DNA of 23,945 bases, taken from a virus. Shown here piece by piece: positions 7,998 to 17,640 of this stretch (its first letter is position 1; every line of letters starts with the position of its first letter). Both the position numbers and the translations under genes were made by a program. The stretch lies in the IMG/VR virus record IMGVR_UViG_3300009094_000069, positions 1 to 23,945 of that record; one strand, given 5' to 3'. The notes under the pieces were generated by a model. It was given only the letters and a program-made list of their open reading frames with translations. It searched no databases and had not been told where the DNA came from.

Positions 7998-10859
7998 TCA
8001 CTGTTGATAGCCACTTTGGTCTGCAATGCTGCCAAGAGCGGCGCCACCTCCGATCACACCTGCGGCACCATACAACGGGATCTCGGCACGCACCAATCCG
8101 CGCCTGACGATCTCGTCACGCGGCATGCCGGTGATCCGATGCGTGCGCTCGATCGCCTCATTGACGATCTGGATCATCGGCTTGGCGGCAAAGCCACCCT
8201 TGGTCTTTTCATCCTTGGCGCCAGCCCAAGCAACCTCCTGATAATAGCGCGGATCGACGCCAGCATTCTTCGCCGCCTGATGCACCACGTCCTCGAAGTG
8301 ACCATACGATCCAGAAGGCGGCATCTGCAGAACCTTGCCCTTTTTATCCAAGGCTCCGATCAATCCCATCATCTGCTCGTCGATGGTCGCGCCCTTGCCA
8401 TAGCCGGTGAAGTTGCCGGAAAAATTGTAGCGCTTCGGATTGATGGTCGGCGAGATGCCCTGTCCCTGCATAATCATCTTGTCGAACTGATCCATGTTCG
8501 ATCCGGCATAACGCCCGCCAATCGGGAACGGGAAGGCATGGCTCGGCGGGACCTGCTCGCCACGCGCCTTCAGCCAGTTGCCGTAATGCGCCATCATCAG
8601 GTTCGAGGTCGGATCAGCGCCGCCGGTCGTTGCCGCCATGGCGTCGGCAAAGCGTTCCTTGAACATTGCACTGCCCTTCGTCGCGCCATACTCCTTGATG
8701 AATTCATCCTCCAGTTGTTTCATGAAGTACCAGTTCTCCGAGCCTGCCTTCTGCTTCAGGCCGCGCTCGTAGGCGCTGGCCAGCCTCGCCTTTGCTTCCG
8801 GCGTATTGGCCATCTCTTCGTACTTCTGGCGCGTTGCCTCCTTGGCCGGGCGCACCACATCCTTTGTGCTCGTCATCGCGGGATAGTTCGCCGGATTGAC
8901 GTCGGCACGCTTGGCCGGATCGAAGTAGGGCGTGTAGTTCCCGGCATCGATGTCGCGCTGCGCCGCCGCGCGCGCCTTCTGCACGCGCTGCGCCTCCTCG
9001 CTCAGCGTTTTTTGCGGGAACCAGTTCTCGGTCTTCGGATCGTAGGTGTTCACCGGAGGAATGACCTCCGGGTAGCGCTCGGCGACCTCGGGAACGGCAC
9101 CAGAACGCGGCGCGACGGCTGAAGGGACAGACGGGGAACGCTTCCCGGGTGTCGCCATCTGCTGCGACTGACGCATCTCGCGCGGCACGGGATTGAGCAC
9201 GCCGCCCATCTCGGCAAACGGCTCATTGAACTCGACGATCTGCTGCGAGGACGGGATCTTCATCTGCTTGATCGGATCGATCGCGTCGCGCTCGGCCTGA
9301 GTGAGATCCCTGCGCAGGTAATTGAGGTTCGCCCTGTTCTCCCCGGCACTGCGATTGTAGTTCGCAAGCGCAGCCTGATTGCGCGCGTACATCTCCATGA
9401 CCTGACGCTGCGCCGGTCCCATCTTTGCCATCTCTGGCGCGAACTCCGTCATGATCTGCTTGTAGATCCCCTCGGCAGGCGAGCCGGGAGCAAAGTTGGT
9501 CGAGGTGTTCGAGCCGCGCGCGCCACCCTCGACAAAGTCGATCGCATGCTGCGGCTCATGCAGGCCCACCTCCAGCATCTTGCCGCGTGGCTTGTGCCTT
9601 CCGCCGGGGATCAGGACGCTCTCATCAACGTTCTGGCTCGGATTGATCGCCATGAACGGACGCTCGTGCTTGGTCGCTGGCGGATAATAAGCAGCACGCC
9701 ATGAACCTTCATTGTCGATGTAGACCGGCATGTCGCGCAGATAGGGAAACGCTTCGAGCGCGTCCGGGTGATCGTAGAGATCGGCCCACGTCAACGGTCC
9801 CTGTTTCTGGATGCGCTCGGTCGCTTCCTGACGCGCCTTCAGCATCTCGGTGCGGTAACGAGCGCTGCCTTCCTTCGGCGGCTTGATGCCGGTCGTCTGC
9901 CCAAACAGATTGAGGCCCTGCTCGGGATTGTTCTCGCGGAAGATCTGCTGCGTGACCTTGTCGATGTCGTGACTGTCGGGCAGGCCTTTGAAGCGCGCAT
10001 TCTGGTCCGACACCTCGAAGTAGAACTTGCCATCGGGAAAGCGGCGCAGCTTGGTGGCCTGAAAGATCTGCTCATCGGAAAAACGCCCGCCCGCCCGCGC
10101 CATCGCTTCGGCGAGATCAAAGGCAGCCTGATCGGCCTTCGGCGACATGCGCGAGCCGAACATGCCTGCGCTGGCGCCGGGACGTGCATAGCCAGCAGGA
10201 GCGCCGCCGCCCATCAAATTGAGCGCGGTATCGATGCCGAACTTGTCGAGCGCCTGCTGGCGCCTCATCTCGCGTCCCACCCGCTGCGAAGTGAGCGGCT
10301 CATTCGGATCGGGATAGCGGTCGAGGATGGAACGCTGCTCAACCGGCGGCGCGAACATTGCACCAGCAATCTGGCCAGCAGCTCGCAACGGTGCAGTGAT
10401 CGGGCGCGTCGCATACTCGAACGGGGTCTCTGCCGGTGGTTGTGTCGAGGCGAGGCCCGGGCGCGGGCGATCCGGGTCCCACGGCTGCGTCGGCTCGACG
10501 GCACGAGCGCCGCCGAACAAATGTCCCACAAGGCCGGGGCGATCGTAGCGCTCGCGCGCGGCGCGCGCCGCCGGAAGCTCGAAGCTCTCGCGATCGGGCT
10601 GCCCCGGCTCCTGCACCGTCGTCATGTAGCGGTTGCGAAGGTTCTGATCGATGGTCGCGGGGGCAGCGGTCGAACCCATGGCGGGGGAGAGATCCGGCTC
10701 GAACAGCCGCCCTTCCGGTCGACCGGCGGTGCCTCCCGGACGGCCCCATCCGGCGTCATCCGGGGGAGGCACCGGGATGTCGCTCGGACGCACCGTGATG
10801 CGCGGGATGCCACGGCTCTGCAGCTCAAGATCGGTCAGCTCGTCATAGGGGTCAGGCAT
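7998..10859 (-). CDS. Large virion (ejection-type) protein with HExxH motif
   Basis: This 953-residue protein is the largest in the window and follows the lysozyme-domain gene with an 8-base overlap. Residues 1-170 are Pro/Arg-rich and poorly ordered. Residues 255-330 form a compact domain. Residues 375-450 contain a metalloprotease-like core with LEVGLHEPQHAIDFVEGG; H434-E435 and H438 fit an HExxH zinc site and the context resembles the large polyvalent protein-associated domains (LPD23-like) found in phage and mobile-element polyproteins. Residues 680-850 are helical. Residues 927-946 (IPLYGAAGVIGGGAALGSIA) are a hydrophobic, Gly/Ala-rich segment that could insert in a membrane. I infer an internal protein delivered with DNA. 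The domain name is from memory of the family pattern. Confidence 0.65.
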   Translation of the reverse strand: MPDPYDELTDLELQSRGIPRITVRPSDIPVPPPDDAGWGRPGGTAGRPEGRLFEPDLSPAMGSTAAPATIDQNLRNRYMTTVQEPGQPDRESFELPAARAARERYDRPGLVGHLFGGARAVEPTQPWDPDRPRPGLASTQPPAETPFEYATRPITAPLRAAGQIAGAMFAPPVEQRSILDRYPDPNEPLTSQRVGREMRRQQALDKFGIDTALNLMGGGAPAGYARPGASAGMFGSRMSPKADQAAFDLAEAMARAGGRFSDEQIFQATKLRRFPDGKFYFEVSDQNARFKGLPDSHDIDKVTQQIFRENNPEQGLNLFGQTTGIKPPKEGSARYRTEMLKARQEATERIQKQGPLTWADLYDHPDALEAFPYLRDMPVYIDNEGSWRAAYYPPATKHERPFMAINPSQNVDESVLIPGGRHKPRGKMLEVGLHEPQHAIDFVEGGARGSNTSTNFAPGSPAEGIYKQIMTEFAPEMAKMGPAQRQVMEMYARNQAALANYNRSAGENRANLNYLRRDLTQAERDAIDPIKQMKIPSSQQIVEFNEPFAEMGGVLNPVPREMRQSQQMATPGKRSPSVPSAVAPRSGAVPEVAERYPEVIPPVNTYDPKTENWFPQKTLSEEAQRVQKARAAAQRDIDAGNYTPYFDPAKRADVNPANYPAMTSTKDVVRPAKEATRQKYEEMANTPEAKARLASAYERGLKQKAGSENWYFMKQLEDEFIKEYGATKGSAMFKERFADAMAATTGGADPTSNLMMAHYGNWLKARGEQVPPSHAFPFPIGGRYAGSNMDQFDKMIMQGQGISPTINPKRYNFSGNFTGYGKGATIDEQMMGLIGALDKKGKVLQMPPSGSYGHFEDVVHQAAKNAGVDPRYYQEVAWAGAKDEKTKGGFAAKPMIQIVNEAIERTHRITGMPRDEIVRRGLVRAEIPLYGAAGVIGGGAALGSIADQSGYQQ

Positions 10860-11673
10860 ACCAGTCCCCGTCCTCGTAGGACGCGATGTCGCCGAGCGCT
10901 CCCATCTTGGCGCCCGGCAGCGAGCCGACAGCGTCCGAGCCCGGGGTCAGTGGGCTCGGAGCCGTCTCCGGGCGAGGGGAAGGCATTGGCACGATCCCGC
11001 CCGGAAAGGCTGGAGGCTGCGCCGCAGGAGGCGCTGACGCAGCCGTTCTCGACGGGCGAAAAGCCATGCTAAGCCCTTCGCCGAGCGTCTCGAGCCCGCC
11101 CCGGATGCCGCGCCGCTGCGAATTCAGCAGCCCGTATGGCCCGGACACCCCGGACACCCCGGACAGCCCATACCTGTCGTTCCGGTCACGTGTTTCACGT
11201 GAAACATTCCCCGGTGCAGATCCGGTCGCCTGCTGCGAAATTGCACCGGGTTCGAGAGGCTGGCCAGCATCTGCCTCGTAAAGAGCACGCGCGTGCTGCT
11301 GGCGCTCGGGCAGCGACTTGTCACCGAAGCGCACGACCTGATTGCCGAACGCCTTGGTCGCGGCATCGATGTCCTGCGCGGCATAGAAGTCCTGCGCGTT
11401 GCCACGCTCGGTCGTGCTCAGCTCATGCCCGATGAAATCGGTCTGCGCACCCGGATCGTTCCACGGCTTGCCCTGCTGGTTGGCGAAGTTCTGCAACGCC
11501 TGAAAGCGCGGCCCGCGCCACTGCATCATGCCATAGGCGCCTTCGTCGGAATTGTATGCGTTCGGATCAAGGCTGCTCTCGCGCTTCAGATTGCCGACAA
11601 CTGCCGCAGCATGCATCTTCGACATGCCGCCGCGCATCAGACGCTGCATCAGGAAGTTCGGATCGACGGGCAT
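10852..11673 (-). CDS. Phage tail lysozyme-domain protein
   Basis: The 273-residue product begins MPVDPNFLMQRLMRGGMSKMHAAAVVGNLKRESSLDPNAYN (given as blocks 1-20 and 21-41). This matches the phage tail lysozyme family, whose members cleave peptidoglycan during DNA entry. E32 in the KRESSLDP motif is the expected catalytic acid, and GAYGMMQWRGPRFQAL (46-60) is the second family block. The enzyme domain ends near 135; the rest is a Pro/Ala/Gly-rich linker with a GVSG repeat (172-178). ATG at 11673 is preferred over the TTG three bases upstream because GGAGG lies at good spacing. A perfect parS sequence is embedded in codons 155-161. The neighbouring 953-residue protein suggests both are virion-borne. 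Confidence 0.8.
   Translation of the reverse strand: MPVDPNFLMQRLMRGGMSKMHAAAVVGNLKRESSLDPNAYNSDEGAYGMMQWRGPRFQALQNFANQQGKPWNDPGAQTDFIGHELSTTERGNAQDFYAAQDIDAATKAFGNQVVRFGDKSLPERQQHARALYEADAGQPLEPGAISQQATGSAPGNVSRETRDRNDRYGLSGVSGVSGPYGLLNSQRRGIRGGLETLGEGLSMAFRPSRTAASAPPAAQPPAFPGGIVPMPSPRPETAPSPLTPGSDAVGSLPGAKMGALGDIASYEDGDWYA
11191..11206. promoter_or_regulatory. Consensus parS site (ParB-binding sequence)
   Basis: The 16 bases TGTTTCACGTGAAACA form a perfect palindrome identical to the classic bacterial chromosomal parS consensus recognised by ParB. It lies within the linker-coding part of the lysozyme gene and reads Asn-Val-Ser-Arg-Glu-Thr in codons GTT TCA CGT GAA ACA, all A/T-ending in a gene that otherwise prefers G/C at the third position. 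No ParA or ParB gene is visible in the window. Binding by host ParB is inference; the sequence match is direct. Confidence 0.8.
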
Positions 11674-11825
11674 CAAACCCTCCGATAAGCGTCAACATTC
11701 TCGCCGACATGCCTGAACGAGAACCAGCGGTCGAGCCGATGATCGACGATGGCGATTGCCGGAATGATGCGGCCGATCCGGCAGCGTGCCTTCCAGCGGC
11801 GCAGCGAAGTGCGCTTGCGTCTCAT
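11673..11825 (-). CDS. Small basic protein, 50 residues
   Basis: A 50-codon frame fills the gap between the 44-residue membrane protein and the lysozyme gene. Its stop overlaps the lysozyme start as TGATG. The product is strongly basic (MRRKRTSLRRWKARCRIGRI at the N-terminus) with a short hydrophobic patch IIPAIAIV and ends DAYRRV. The start at 11825 lies five bases after the preceding stop. No strong ribosome site is evident; re-initiation after the upstream stop is likely. Function is unknown. The close fit between its neighbours argues that it is translated. Confidence 0.55.
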   Translation of the reverse strand: MRRKRTSLRRWKARCRIGRIIPAIAIVDHRLDRWFSFRHVGENVDAYRRV

Positions 11826-11830
11826 GGCGT

Positions 11831-11965
11831 TCACCAATCATCTGGAACGAACAGCGTCGGGAAAATATTGCGCGTGAACCAAGCCAACGCAATAACACCG
11901 GCAATTCCGATCGTTCCTCCGATCGCCATCGACACCAGCATAATGATCATATCGCGCGCACTCAT
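11831..11965 (-). CDS. Small membrane protein, 44 residues
   Basis: The ATG at 11965 overlaps the portal stop as ATGA. The product has one clear transmembrane helix at about 7-30 (IIMLVSMAIGGTIGIAGVIA) followed by a short tail ending PDDW. Membrane peptides of this size between portal and lysozyme genes could be holin-like or take part in DNA entry, but there is no family signature and no endolysin/spanin set beside it. It is too short to place further. Confidence 0.6.
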   Translation of the reverse strand: MSARDMIIMLVSMAIGGTIGIAGVIALAWFTRNIFPTLFVPDDW

Positions 11966-14352
11966 TGCGCCGGTCCCTTCGGCATCATCATCTGTCTCTC
12001 CTTCAGCTGCGAGGACTGCGCGAACTGCTGGTCCTTCTGGCGCGAGGCCTGATTGAACTGCGCCTGCTTCTGCTGGCGGCCGAGCGCGCTGTCCTGCGCC
12101 TTCATCGCCATGCCCTGACGCACGGCAGCGTTCTTGTCCATCTGGCCGCGCTGCTGGATCTGCGCCTTCTGCGTGTCGATCACGAAGTCGCGCTGCGACT
12201 TATCTGCATCCTGCGCGGCCTTCTCGCGATCGCGCTGCATCTGCGCGGCGATCTGCGCCATCTTGGCCCGACGCTCGCGCTCGGCGCCTTGGAATTCGAG
12301 CATCGCAACTTCCTTCTCGTTCTGCACCTTGGTCTGCTCGACGCGCATGCGCGACATGATCTCGGTCATCTGCAGATTGCGGTCCTTGTCGTTCTCCTGC
12401 GCGGCGTGCTGCATCTTCATCTGCTCGATCTGCAGCTTGGTCTGCGGGTCTTCGCCCATCTTCTGCTGCTGGCCGCCCTGCGGCAGCTGGCCGGACGCTG
12501 CGAGCTGGCCGAGCTGGTCGACCATCTCGTCGATCGCACCGTCGAGCTGGCGACCCGCGCGATAGGGTGCGACCGCGAACTTGAGCACCTCGCCGCCGAA
12601 CTTCGCGGTCTGCGGCATGGTCGTGATCATCACGCCAAGCTGCTGGATCAGGGTCGAGAGCACGGTGACGAATTCGCCGCGCTGCTCTTTCTCCTGCTGC
12701 TCGTCGATCATGATCGTGCTGTCAGTCTCGATGTCGAGCACGAACGAGCGCGTGCGATTGTCGCGCAGGAACGCCAGCACGTCCTCGACCGTTGCCTTCT
12801 CGGACAGCTTCTGCACCTCCTGCTGCGCCTGCTGCATCATCTGCTGCGCCTGCTGCATCATCTGCGGATTAGCCTGCAGCTGCTGCATCATCTGCGGGTT
12901 CGCGCTGAGCTGCTGCGTCTGCTGCTGCACCTGCTGCGTGATCTGCTGGATCTGCTGCTGGATCTCCATCTTGCGCGGCAGCTGCATCTGCGCCATCGCA
13001 AGGATCGTCTCATCGTCGAACTTCTCGGTGATGATCTCGACCGAGATCTGCACACAGTCCTTGGCAATGCGTGCCATCTCGCCCTGCTTGTCGCGGATGC
13101 GCACGGCACCGGACTGCATCTTCATCTTCTGCGCGCCGAGCGTCTCCTGCGGATCAGTCGCACCACGCATGATGTCGGACAGGCCGACGATCTGGTAGAT
13201 GTCCTGAATGATCTCCTTGCGCAGCGCGACCAGCGAATTGACGGTGTTGGCGATCTCCTCGATCGGCAGCCAGACGATCACTTCCTTGCTGCCGCCGAAC
13301 GCCGCCCAATTGTTGATCGGCACGAGAATGCGCCCGGCCGACTTCATCTTGATGGCCTTCTCGACCGCGTCGGCGATCTCGGTGCCGCCAGAGGGATAGA
13401 AGCCCTTCACCTCGATCGCGTCGGCGAGCGCGTGAATGCGCCCGGTGAGCGCGTTCAGTTCCTCCAGCTGGTCGCGATAATACTCGACGTCGGGGATCGG
13501 GATCAGCGAGCCGGGCTGCACCGTCGAATAGGCCGGTTGCGGACAGGGGAAGTAGCCCTGCAGGTCGAGATGCGGCTCGGCATAGTCGAGCAGCACTTCC
13601 GATCCCTCGCTCACCCACGCGACAAGGCCGAGCGTGCGGTGCCACACTTCCCAGATCTTGGCGCGCTCGCGATCGTCGGTGCCGCCGACGTCCTTGCTGT
13701 CGCGCTGCACCTTGTAGTCGAGCTTGTCGTAGGCATCCTTGGAATATTTTTTGAAGCGCTTCTTCGCCTCGCGCCGCGTCAGGTAGCTCGCGGCGGCAAC
13801 CCATTCGACCTCGTACCAGTTGCGGCAGATCGCGTGCAGGAAGTCGCGCCGGTCCTTGTGCTCGATGCAGACCTTCTCGGGCTTGCCGTTCCTGCCCTTC
13901 TCGTGACGGCACCAGAGCACGCCACGCCCGTGCAGCGTCAGGCTGTCGCGCGTCTGCTTCAGCGCCGGATGCACGTAGGCGAGATCGAACGCGACGGTGG
14001 CGCAACGCTCGGCCATCTCGCTCGCGGTCTGCGGGACCGGCCTGCGATCCTTGAACTTCGGCACCACGACCGGGATCGGCGGGCGCGCATAGATCACCGG
14101 GGCAAGCACCTGAATGTTCGACCAGAACATCTGGAATTGCCGGTCGCGGTTGGCGGTGCGCAGCCGTTCGAGATTGCCGTAGAGCTTGTCAATGTTGTCG
14201 CAGGCGTCATTCCACTCCTCGAAGGCGGTCTCGCTCTCGCGGATCAGCTCAAGCCACGTGTCGGCGTTCTTCGGCTCGGTGAAGACGTTGACTTCATCGC
14301 TCAGGCGACCGCGCGGTTCGGCTGCCTTGCCGGGAGGGCTTTCACTTGCCAT
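11962..14352 (-). CDS. Portal protein with Gln/Met-rich insertion
   Basis: This 796-residue protein fits the large portal proteins of podoviruses (P22-like): a helical N-terminus, FWSNIQVLAPVIYARPPIPVV at 76-96, a wing/clip region with HGRGVLWCRHEKG (141-153) and a long helix around IYQIVGLSDIMRGATDPQETLGAQ (385-408), the hallmark stretch of this portal group. Residues 463-515 are an unusual Gln/Met-rich run containing ANPQMMQQ twice. From about 635 to the end it is a Gln/Lys/Met-rich coiled coil of 160 residues, comparable to the barrel of P22 portal. The start overlaps the HAD gene's end by 11 bases. The 12-subunit ring role at the DNA vertex is family knowledge. Confidence 0.85.
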   Translation of the reverse strand: MASESPPGKAAEPRGRLSDEVNVFTEPKNADTWLELIRESETAFEEWNDACDNIDKLYGNLERLRTANRDRQFQMFWSNIQVLAPVIYARPPIPVVVPKFKDRRPVPQTASEMAERCATVAFDLAYVHPALKQTRDSLTLHGRGVLWCRHEKGRNGKPEKVCIEHKDRRDFLHAICRNWYEVEWVAAASYLTRREAKKRFKKYSKDAYDKLDYKVQRDSKDVGGTDDRERAKIWEVWHRTLGLVAWVSEGSEVLLDYAEPHLDLQGYFPCPQPAYSTVQPGSLIPIPDVEYYRDQLEELNALTGRIHALADAIEVKGFYPSGGTEIADAVEKAIKMKSAGRILVPINNWAAFGGSKEVIVWLPIEEIANTVNSLVALRKEIIQDIYQIVGLSDIMRGATDPQETLGAQKMKMQSGAVRIRDKQGEMARIAKDCVQISVEIITEKFDDETILAMAQMQLPRKMEIQQQIQQITQQVQQQTQQLSANPQMMQQLQANPQMMQQAQQMMQQAQQEVQKLSEKATVEDVLAFLRDNRTRSFVLDIETDSTIMIDEQQEKEQRGEFVTVLSTLIQQLGVMITTMPQTAKFGGEVLKFAVAPYRAGRQLDGAIDEMVDQLGQLAASGQLPQGGQQQKMGEDPQTKLQIEQMKMQHAAQENDKDRNLQMTEIMSRMRVEQTKVQNEKEVAMLEFQGAERERRAKMAQIAAQMQRDREKAAQDADKSQRDFVIDTQKAQIQQRGQMDKNAAVRQGMAMKAQDSALGRQQKQAQFNQASRQKDQQFAQSSQLKERQMMMPKGPAQ

Positions 14353-15613: not shown

Positions 15614-15924
15614 GCATGACCCTCGATATTGTCGTCGTTTTCCAGAAGCGCCTTGCGGATCTCGTCATCGACCACGAACGTGTTGGCCATGTCTTGCGCC
15701 ATCGTATCGAGATGCGCGGCGATCGTGCGCAGGTTGTCGGCACACTTGATGCCGGTGATGGTGTTGAGCCTGACGGTGTCATCGGCAGACGGACGCGCGA
15801 CAATGAGAACGAACTCGAACTTCGGATCACCGAAGATGCCGGTGAGCACGCCATGAATGCCATTGGCCAAGATCGACAGGCGCGCATCAGGATCAGTGGG
15901 CGCTTGGGGGTTCTCAACGTTCAT
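15610..15924 (-). CDS. Small protein of unknown function, 104 residues
   Basis: The ATG at 15924 overlaps the terL stop as ATGA, and the stop overlaps the next gene the same way, so it is the first gene of the accessory cassette. The protein has a short disordered N-terminus, a beta-rich middle (FEFVLIVARPSADDTVRLNT) and two C-terminal helices (CADNLRTIAAHLDTMAQDM and DDEIRKALLE). There are no cysteine clusters, signal peptide or membrane helix. I do not recognise it. Its neighbour being Acb2-like makes a counter-defence or host-takeover role possible, but nothing in the sequence itself shows this. Confidence 0.65.
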   Translation of the reverse strand: MNVENPQAPTDPDARLSILANGIHGVLTGIFGDPKFEFVLIVARPSADDTVRLNTITGIKCADNLRTIAAHLDTMAQDMANTFVVDDEIRKALLENDDNIEGHA

Positions 15925-17288
15925 AGCTCGATCCTCCCCGGGCGACGGGGGTTCGGCTCATCAGGAGGCGGGATGAACCATCCAGTCGGCCGACGTTCCT
16001 GCACCCTTACCACCGGAAGCAGCTTCCACGCCAGCGATCCATAGCGGAAGGCATCGGCATAGTGCGTCGTCCAGTTGCGCTTTTCCTCCTGCTTGAAGGC
16101 CTTTAGCTCCTCATCCCACGTGCGACAATACTGTTCGAGCGCCGCTACACCGATTTCCTCGCAGCGCGGGTGAAAGATCGAGAGCGGCAGCGTGCGGCGC
16201 GCGGCCTCGATGCCGTCGAGCTTGCTCATGTTCGGCACGAGGATCGGATGCAGACCGTGCTCGATCATGCTCTCGACGCGCGTGCGGCCAGATCCCCATT
16301 CGAGCACCTTGGCATCGTGCGGCACGTAGTCGTTGCCGTCCTTCCAGCCGTGCAGTGCGCGCTTCTGCTCGATCACACCGGCATAATGCTCGACGCCCGC
16401 CGTCATCGCGCCATAGACATCGAGCCAGAGGATCTGCGCGCCGCGCATCTGGAAGAACCAGATCGCAGTGTCGTCGCGCACGCCGATGTCCCATGCGCGA
16501 TGCACCGGCAGCTCGGGATCGTGCTCGACGTCGATGATGCGTTTCTCCTTGCGCACCTCCATCATTTCGAGCGCGAAGTAGGCGCCAAGGATCGCGGCGC
16601 TAAAGTTGCAATTGTATTCCTGCTCGAACTGCGCCTGACCAACGTCGCGACCGAACAGCGCGATGTACTCGGCGAGCGCCTCGTCGAGCTGCGCCTGCGA
16701 GAGCGCTGCGGTGTCGCGCGCGGTGAGCAGCGAGGTGAACCAGTGCGGGCTCTTCATCGCCATGTCGAACATGGTCTTTGCGTGGTTGCGTCCGCGCGGC
16801 GTCGTGATGAAGAGCGCGTAGCCGTTGTTCTCTTCGAGGATGGGACGGTGATAGCCCCACGCACCGGGATGCGAGAGCGCCCACTCGCTGTACGTGATGC
16901 CCGCAACGCCCGAGCCGACAGTCGCATCGTATCGATCGCTGCCAATCACCTGCCACGTCGAGCCGTTGTGAAAGCGGATGAACATCTCATTGTCATTGAT
17001 GTTGGCGCGCAGCTCGGGCGGGAACGCTTCATCAATGCGCCGCTTGCCGGTGTGCGAGTTGACCGCAGTCCATATGGCTTTTCGGCCCTGCTCATACTCG
17101 GGCAGGCAGTGCCAATAATTGCCGACGCGATCATGCGCGGAGCACGCGGCGAAGTGCAGCGCGACGTCATCCTTGCCTGCACGACGATGCCACACCGCCA
17201 TCGCGCGCTTGCCGCCATCGATGAGGTGATAAAACAGCGCTTCCTGATACGGACGCGGTCGCCAGTTATTTGGAAGACGGATCGTCAT
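15921..17288 (-). CDS. terL: Terminase large subunit
   Basis: The ATPase/nuclease motor that packages DNA. Counting from Met at 17288 (455 residues): PRPYQEALFY near the start, a deviant Walker A in VWHRRAGKDD (about 33-42), a Walker B-like GITYSEWA (about 130-137, catalytic Glu in SEW), and a coupling motif FITTPRG (about 161-167). The nuclease domain has acidic residues in HRAWDIG (D267), PHDAK (D325) and HYADAFRYGS (D412). Starts at 17294 and 17309 are in frame and no candidate has a strong ribosome site; 17288 was chosen because recognisable family sequence begins there. It overlaps the small subunit by 23 bases and the next gene by four. Confidence 0.92.
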   Translation of the reverse strand: MTIRLPNNWRPRPYQEALFYHLIDGGKRAMAVWHRRAGKDDVALHFAACSAHDRVGNYWHCLPEYEQGRKAIWTAVNSHTGKRRIDEAFPPELRANINDNEMFIRFHNGSTWQVIGSDRYDATVGSGVAGITYSEWALSHPGAWGYHRPILEENNGYALFITTPRGRNHAKTMFDMAMKSPHWFTSLLTARDTAALSQAQLDEALAEYIALFGRDVGQAQFEQEYNCNFSAAILGAYFALEMMEVRKEKRIIDVEHDPELPVHRAWDIGVRDDTAIWFFQMRGAQILWLDVYGAMTAGVEHYAGVIEQKRALHGWKDGNDYVPHDAKVLEWGSGRTRVESMIEHGLHPILVPNMSKLDGIEAARRTLPLSIFHPRCEEIGVAALEQYCRTWDEELKAFKQEEKRNWTTHYADAFRYGSLAWKLLPVVRVQERRPTGWFIPPPDEPNPRRPGRIEL

Positions 17289-17640
17289 GGCCATTGCCGT
17301 TGAGCGCATGACCGTTCGGCGTCACATCGATCGTCAACGGCTGCGACTGCACTGGCAACGGCTCGAAGCGGCGCACGATCTCGACGACAAGCTTGTTGGC
17401 TTGCACATCGATCTGCAGCGGAATGATTTTCGAGAGCGCAGGCACGAACACCTGCGGATGCGAGAGTGCGACGGACTTCAAATAATTATGAAGTCCGTCG
17501 TCGCCTCCACCACCTGCGCTGTTCGCCGCGCGCAGGAACGCCTCCTTCAGCAGGAGAGTAGGCATCGTAGGGCCGGGTGGCCTGCCCTTTGGGTTGCGAA
17601 CTTCACCCTTCTTGATCGACGTGCGGTTTGCCTTGCCCAC
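17266..17640 (-). CDS. Putative terminase small subunit
   Basis: The product (124 residues from GTG 17640) carries NRTSIKKGEVRNPKGRPPG near the N-terminus, the F/I-x-KG-x-x-x-NPKGRP-G motif of the DUF5681/small-terminase-like group. A helical region LLLKEAFLRAANSAGG and a central LSHPQVFVPALSKIIPLQI block follow. It lies directly before and overlaps terL, the usual place for the DNA-recognition subunit. No ATG precedes the motif. GTG with GAG seven bases upstream is preferred; TTG at 17646 is the alternative. The 5' end overlaps the nuclease gene by 38 bases. Assignment rests on position plus the N-terminal motif. Confidence 0.7.
   Translation of the reverse strand: MGKANRTSIKKGEVRNPKGRPPGPTMPTLLLKEAFLRAANSAGGGGDDGLHNYLKSVALSHPQVFVPALSKIIPLQIDVQANKLVVEIVRRFEPLPVQSQPLTIDVTPNGHALNGNGHDDPSSK

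Follow-up and report, generated by a model that had tools for sequence, protein, structure and literature searches.

Why does a phage gene for a tail lysozyme carry, base for base, the centromere site of bacterial chromosomes? The parS site is among the most conserved DNA signals of bacteria, and phages with whole ParABS systems are known. The stretch of DNA analysed here (the window; 23,945 bases, probably a fragment, from a virus record) contains a 16-bp palindrome at 11191..11206 (no strand assigned) that matches the parS consensus TGTTTCACGTGAAACA at 16 of 16 positions, exactly as an earlier note on this DNA had claimed. It is the only copy in the 23,945-base window, where no further site with up to three mismatches was found, and the longest perfect palindrome there (12–18 bp scan; all others 14 bp or shorter). 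At the base composition of the window 1.06e-6 copies of the 16-mer would be expected, and 3.1e-5 of the 14-bp core GTTTCACGTGAAAC (11192..11205, no strand assigned), which is the unit kept across relatives; none of 100 dinucleotide shuffles of the window contained a match to the 16-mer. The rarity asserted in the earlier note thus stands, and its figure of about 6e-6 is replaced by a somewhat lower one. In the viral contigs of IMG/VR, parS is strongly over-represented: the 16-mer occurs in at least 120 stretches, and two control palindromes of the same composition in 1 and 5. A chance origin of the site is ruled out by the expected counts, the shuffles, the control palindromes and the conservation in relatives described below.

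The gene that carries the site (10852..11676, minus strand) encodes a phage tail lysozyme-like protein of 274 aa, starting at TTG or at an ATG in codon 2, with matches to Pfam PF18013 (2.3e-28) and to tail and tape-measure families of PHROGs. Its catalytic lysozyme domain (Phage_lysozyme2, PF18013; 99.6 bits against a curated cut-off of 28.2) covers residues 10–134 (11275..11649, minus strand). In an AlphaFold model built with 14 homologues, residues 1–137 are helical and folded, mostly at moderate confidence, and residues 138–274 (10855..11265, minus strand), where homologues align poorly, have pLDDT below 50 and are predicted to form a disordered linker and C-terminal part. The 16-mer spans the codons GTT, TCA, CGT, GAA and ACA and the final base of the preceding codon; the encoded VSRET (residues 158–162, numbered from the TTG) falls in this predicted disordered part, so that the protein probably demands little there, in agreement with the earlier placement of the site in a non-catalytic linker of low constraint. 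The same linker contains a short tandem repeat of the ccggacacc type (11130–11169 on the plus strand; GVSGVSG in the protein), which was not seen in homologues. Directly upstream of the lysozyme gene lies the portal protein gene (11962..14352, minus strand; phrog_12082, 3.4e-175), followed further upstream by the gene for the terminase large subunit (15921..17309, minus strand; phrog_2, 2.2e-23), with a gene order kept in relatives. After the lysozyme gene comes a large gene of 953 aa (7998..10859, minus strand), regarded as late by its position and by synteny in L122, L124 and L128, with no function assigned (weak sub-threshold match to LPD23).

Relatives were first found by means of the portal protein, and in the closest two with a full lysozyme gene (L122 and L124) GTTTCACGTGAAAC stands at the same codons despite lysozymes that are only 57% identical. 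A search of viral contigs with the single lysozyme sequence gave no matches; an alignment query was needed, which retrieved 27 loci, and a broader alignment added L276 and L278. Conservation was counted over 25 records, window included, in which the lysozyme gene is covered through the linker and protein identity goes down to about 41%. In 21 of the 25 records the homologous codons hold the core with no more than one mismatch, and in 15 it is exact, the six one-mismatch cores being those of L211, L212–L215 and L223, whereas the flanks of the core are unalignable. Several of the 25 records are near-identical; among 14 distinct representative genes, 12 carry the site. Related phages lacking the sequence, named beforehand as evidence against a function, make up two small lineages only, one consisting of L207, L208 and L222 and the other of L221, where the core is removed by a deletion. 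Loss in two lineages indicates a site that is useful but dispensable rather than essential. More distant proteins, which have only the catalytic domain in common with this one (L224–L227, L281–L283), have no site at this place. The lysozyme gene of L222 (L222:10001-10837) is frameshifted after about residue 40, either in reality or by assembly error. One-mismatch cores were also seen, at other places, in two further relatives (G007:C1:32171-32184 and G015:C1:4523-4536; GTTTCCCGTGAAAC and GTTTCATGTGAAAC), in neither of which a lysozyme homologue was found.

The codons of the site separate constraint on DNA from constraint on protein. In ten site-bearing representatives the codons within the core are invariant (Val GTT 9/9, Ser TCA 10/10, Arg CGT 10/10, Glu GAA 9/9), whereas the Thr codon varies (ACA 2, ACG 3, ACT 1, ACC 3); its third base is base 16 of the palindrome, just beyond the 14-bp core, and all four letters occur there. 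Across the gene, mean pairwise codon identity at conserved residues is 0.53, and four-fold sites are 37–57% identical between lineages. The naive chance that all four codons are invariant is 3e-4, measured against the remaining columns of the gene alignment and with the parS identity of the conserved word not yet counted. Among the 1121 14-base windows of the gene alignment the parS window ranks fourth, the better ones mutually overlapping in the catalytic domain; within the linker and C-terminal part it reaches 0.98 (next best 0.83, mean 0.47), and conservation drops exactly outside the 14-bp core. The earlier remark that the A/T-ending codons are atypical of the gene is borne out by the main genes of the window, in which the codons of the site are mostly non-preferred (GTT 12% of Val, TCA 6% of Ser, CGT 17% of Arg, GAA 26% of Glu, ACA 4% of Thr). 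Core codons that are invariant and mostly non-preferred, set against a free Thr third base in a predicted disordered linker, argue that selection acts on DNA, as had been proposed; purifying selection almost certainly maintains the site as DNA and not as peptide. Conservation of VSRET for a protein reason is scarcely credible, even though the peptide is present in most members: synonymous positions are fixed within the core and vary at the one outside it, the peptide itself varies (V to I, E to G, T to M) where one base has changed, disorder is predicted for this region, and protein-level constraint is rejected on the codon pattern.

Because the window is probably a fragment, the absence of parB from it says little, and relatives had to be examined. 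Exactly one site was found per site-bearing record (core with at most two mismatches; other record sets with at most one). G017 (44,835 bases) and G028 (43,965 bases) carry direct repeats at their termini (103 and 127 bases, respectively) and for this reason are probably complete genomes of about 44 kb. Profile searches detected no ParB_N domain (PF02195) in 32 records (the clade together with its portal relatives), no HTH_ParB (PF17762) in 12 records and no ParA-type AAA_31 (PF13614) in 16 records. The single copy holds for the two ~44 kb genomes too, and the lack of detectable Par genes extends to the relatives what the earlier note had reported for parB in the window; a divergent ParB beneath the profile threshold is possible in a clade with many genes of no assigned function. 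The usual setting of parS, beside a replication origin and parAB, was not found: the phage site sits within a lysozyme gene, in a clade without detectable parAB.

Portal relatives were found in genomes of Ancylobacter, Mesorhizobium, a 'Rhizobiales bacterium' and Aestuariivirga, all of which we take to be Hyphomicrobiales. Each of these four genomes has 1–4 copies of the exact GTTTCACGTGAAAC, on one contig each, and no parS was present in the portal regions fetched from them. A search for relatives of the lysozyme in bacterial genomes found none, and among the matches listed for isolated phages and plasmids there were only distant lysozyme domains. For the parS clade itself, a host among the Hyphomicrobiales is inferred from the relatives only. 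The ParB of an alphaproteobacterium, Caulobacter crescentus, has been crystallised on GGATGTTTCACGTGAAACATCC, which is identical to the phage 16-mer (PMC8367383).

On balance, the site is best read as an orphan parS, a host-type centromere through which ParB of the host would be loaded on phage DNA, with positioning or partition as the likeliest purpose. That host ParB is the reader is highly probable; that the phage benefits by having its genomes positioned or partitioned is put forward tentatively, at or just under an even chance. Host ParB would bind the phage parS after genome entry or replication, close as a CTP-dependent clamp and slide onto the adjacent phage DNA; host ParA, and possibly SMC, might then handle the phage genome as an origin region. 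Phage genomes could in this way be kept at a particular place, such as the pole, together with the host origin, or, in a slow or carrier infection with cell division, be passed to both daughters. Foci of ParB are known from phage DNA engineered to carry parS (PMC13190303; PMC4697819). Positioning, titration and gene regulation are indistinguishable by sequence, and positioning or partition is preferred because one site suffices for it, whereas additional copies should favour a decoy.

Exact parS sites also occur in other phages. In a second, unrelated group, about 17 loci among the matches listed (L007, L019, L027, L029, L042, L045, L066, L070, L083, L088, L093, L097, L101, L110, L111, L119 and L120) have an exact parS beside a conserved block, and in the members examined (L120, L101 and similar) the site is intergenic, immediately upstream of the gene for the terminase large subunit. 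L097 has in addition a variant, TGTTCCACGTGGAACA, near its parS. In L092 (position 7754) and L109 (position 3397), contigs with DNA about 75% identical, parS lies within a primase/helicase-like gene, possibly another conserved orphan parS. Among the matches listed, a ParB_N match was found in only 4 of 50 longer parS-bearing records, which may include fragments or host DNA. Orphan parS sites may therefore be common in phages.

The main rival is titration of ParB. With one parS on every copy, the replicated phage DNA would draw ParB off the origins of the host chromosome, so that segregation and division of the host stall, to the gain of the phage. With 1–4 exact cores per related-host genome, a large phage burst would outnumber the host sites; the phage has no detectable ParB of its own, and ParB imbalance disturbs other bacteria (PMC5521831). 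Multiple copies would be expected to pay off for such a decoy, yet each genome has exactly one, and ParB is non-essential in some bacteria, so that we regard titration as unlikely, though worth keeping in view. A regulatory role is improbable: loaded ParB would spread across the late operon and repress or tune late genes, or would serve as a roadblock. The site does lie within the late operon, and the parS of the second phage group stands immediately upstream of the terminase gene; repression by host ParB of promoters close to parS is named for Pseudomonas in the title of PMC5521831, and PMC11652158 refers (its reference 39) to a precedent in a phage-plasmid that involves Sop and late genes. 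The site of the present clade, in contrast, is within a coding sequence and not at a known promoter.

The palindrome might also be the operator of some other phage or host DNA-binding protein, its likeness to parS being coincidental, since sequence alone fails to name the reader of a site. This is distinctly improbable in view of all 16 bases being those of the parS consensus, of conservation that ends exactly at the 14-bp core and of plausible hosts that have the same core. The phage-plasmid, one of the options in the earlier note, here taken as a clade that persists as a plasmid lysogen and is inherited stably via host ParAB, fares worse and is very improbable. A parS without an integrase would suit an episomal lifestyle, and the terminal repeats of two contigs permit a circular form. 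Neither tyrosine integrase nor serine recombinase was detected in the parS clade, nor were ParA or ParB; G017 codes for a DNA polymerase, a primase and a helicase of its own, and among the proteins scanned, most of them unassigned, none was recognisable as a replication initiator or repressor. Integrated or temperate relatives, moreover, were without parS: G010, G011 and G014, which have a tyrosine integrase, have none at up to one mismatch; the temperate isolate RHph_I3_18 (integrase, repressor) has none in the DNA fetched, and neither has Bradyrhizobium phage ppBjS10J-1 in the DNA fetched (first 4.5 kb left out).

The favoured reading is thus still an orphan parS, probably read by host ParB. 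A family of uncultured phages that keeps parS near-unchanged in one virion gene suggests that the chromosome-segregation machinery of the host is recruited. If so, this machinery would be a target or a tool of infection, which could explain the placement or inheritance of some phage genomes in the cell. Whether capture of host ParB through an orphan parS is a general strategy of ParB-less phages, arisen several times (in a lysozyme gene, upstream of a terminase gene and elsewhere), is evenly balanced. Both parS and phage ParABS systems were already known; of a conserved host-type parS without detectable Par proteins no description was found in open-access full texts, a scope that leaves subscription journals and preprints mostly outside.

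Among known systems, the engineered imaging phages lambda-parS and P22-parS (PMC13190303, PMC4697819) show by the ParB foci on their DNA that such loading is feasible, with a parS inserted artificially and a tagged ParB, unlike the natural site described here. The ParB-only phages of Staphylococcus (Lacachita group, PMC10286716) also carry an incomplete ParABS; they have the protein without ParA, and the present clade has the site without any detectable Par protein. Chromosomal parS (ParABS, consensus TGTTTCACGTGAAACA) is a 16-bp palindrome identical to that of the phage, with the same 14-bp core in Hyphomicrobiales genomes; the phage site differs in lying within a virion gene, in being single and in having no parAB detected nearby or in the genome, and its reading by ParB is putative. 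Phage-plasmids and actinobacteriophages with ParABS (P1, N15, cluster A mycobacteriophages) likewise have a centromere-like site on the phage genome, but there ParB, ParA and the site all belong to the phage, whereas in the present clade neither protein was found and the site is of host type. A further parallel is that of IMEX phage elements, which exploit host Xer recombination by way of a short site of the host chromosome and of the protein with which the host reads this site; by analogy, the present phages would use parS and ParB for binding where IMEX elements use dif and Xer for integration.
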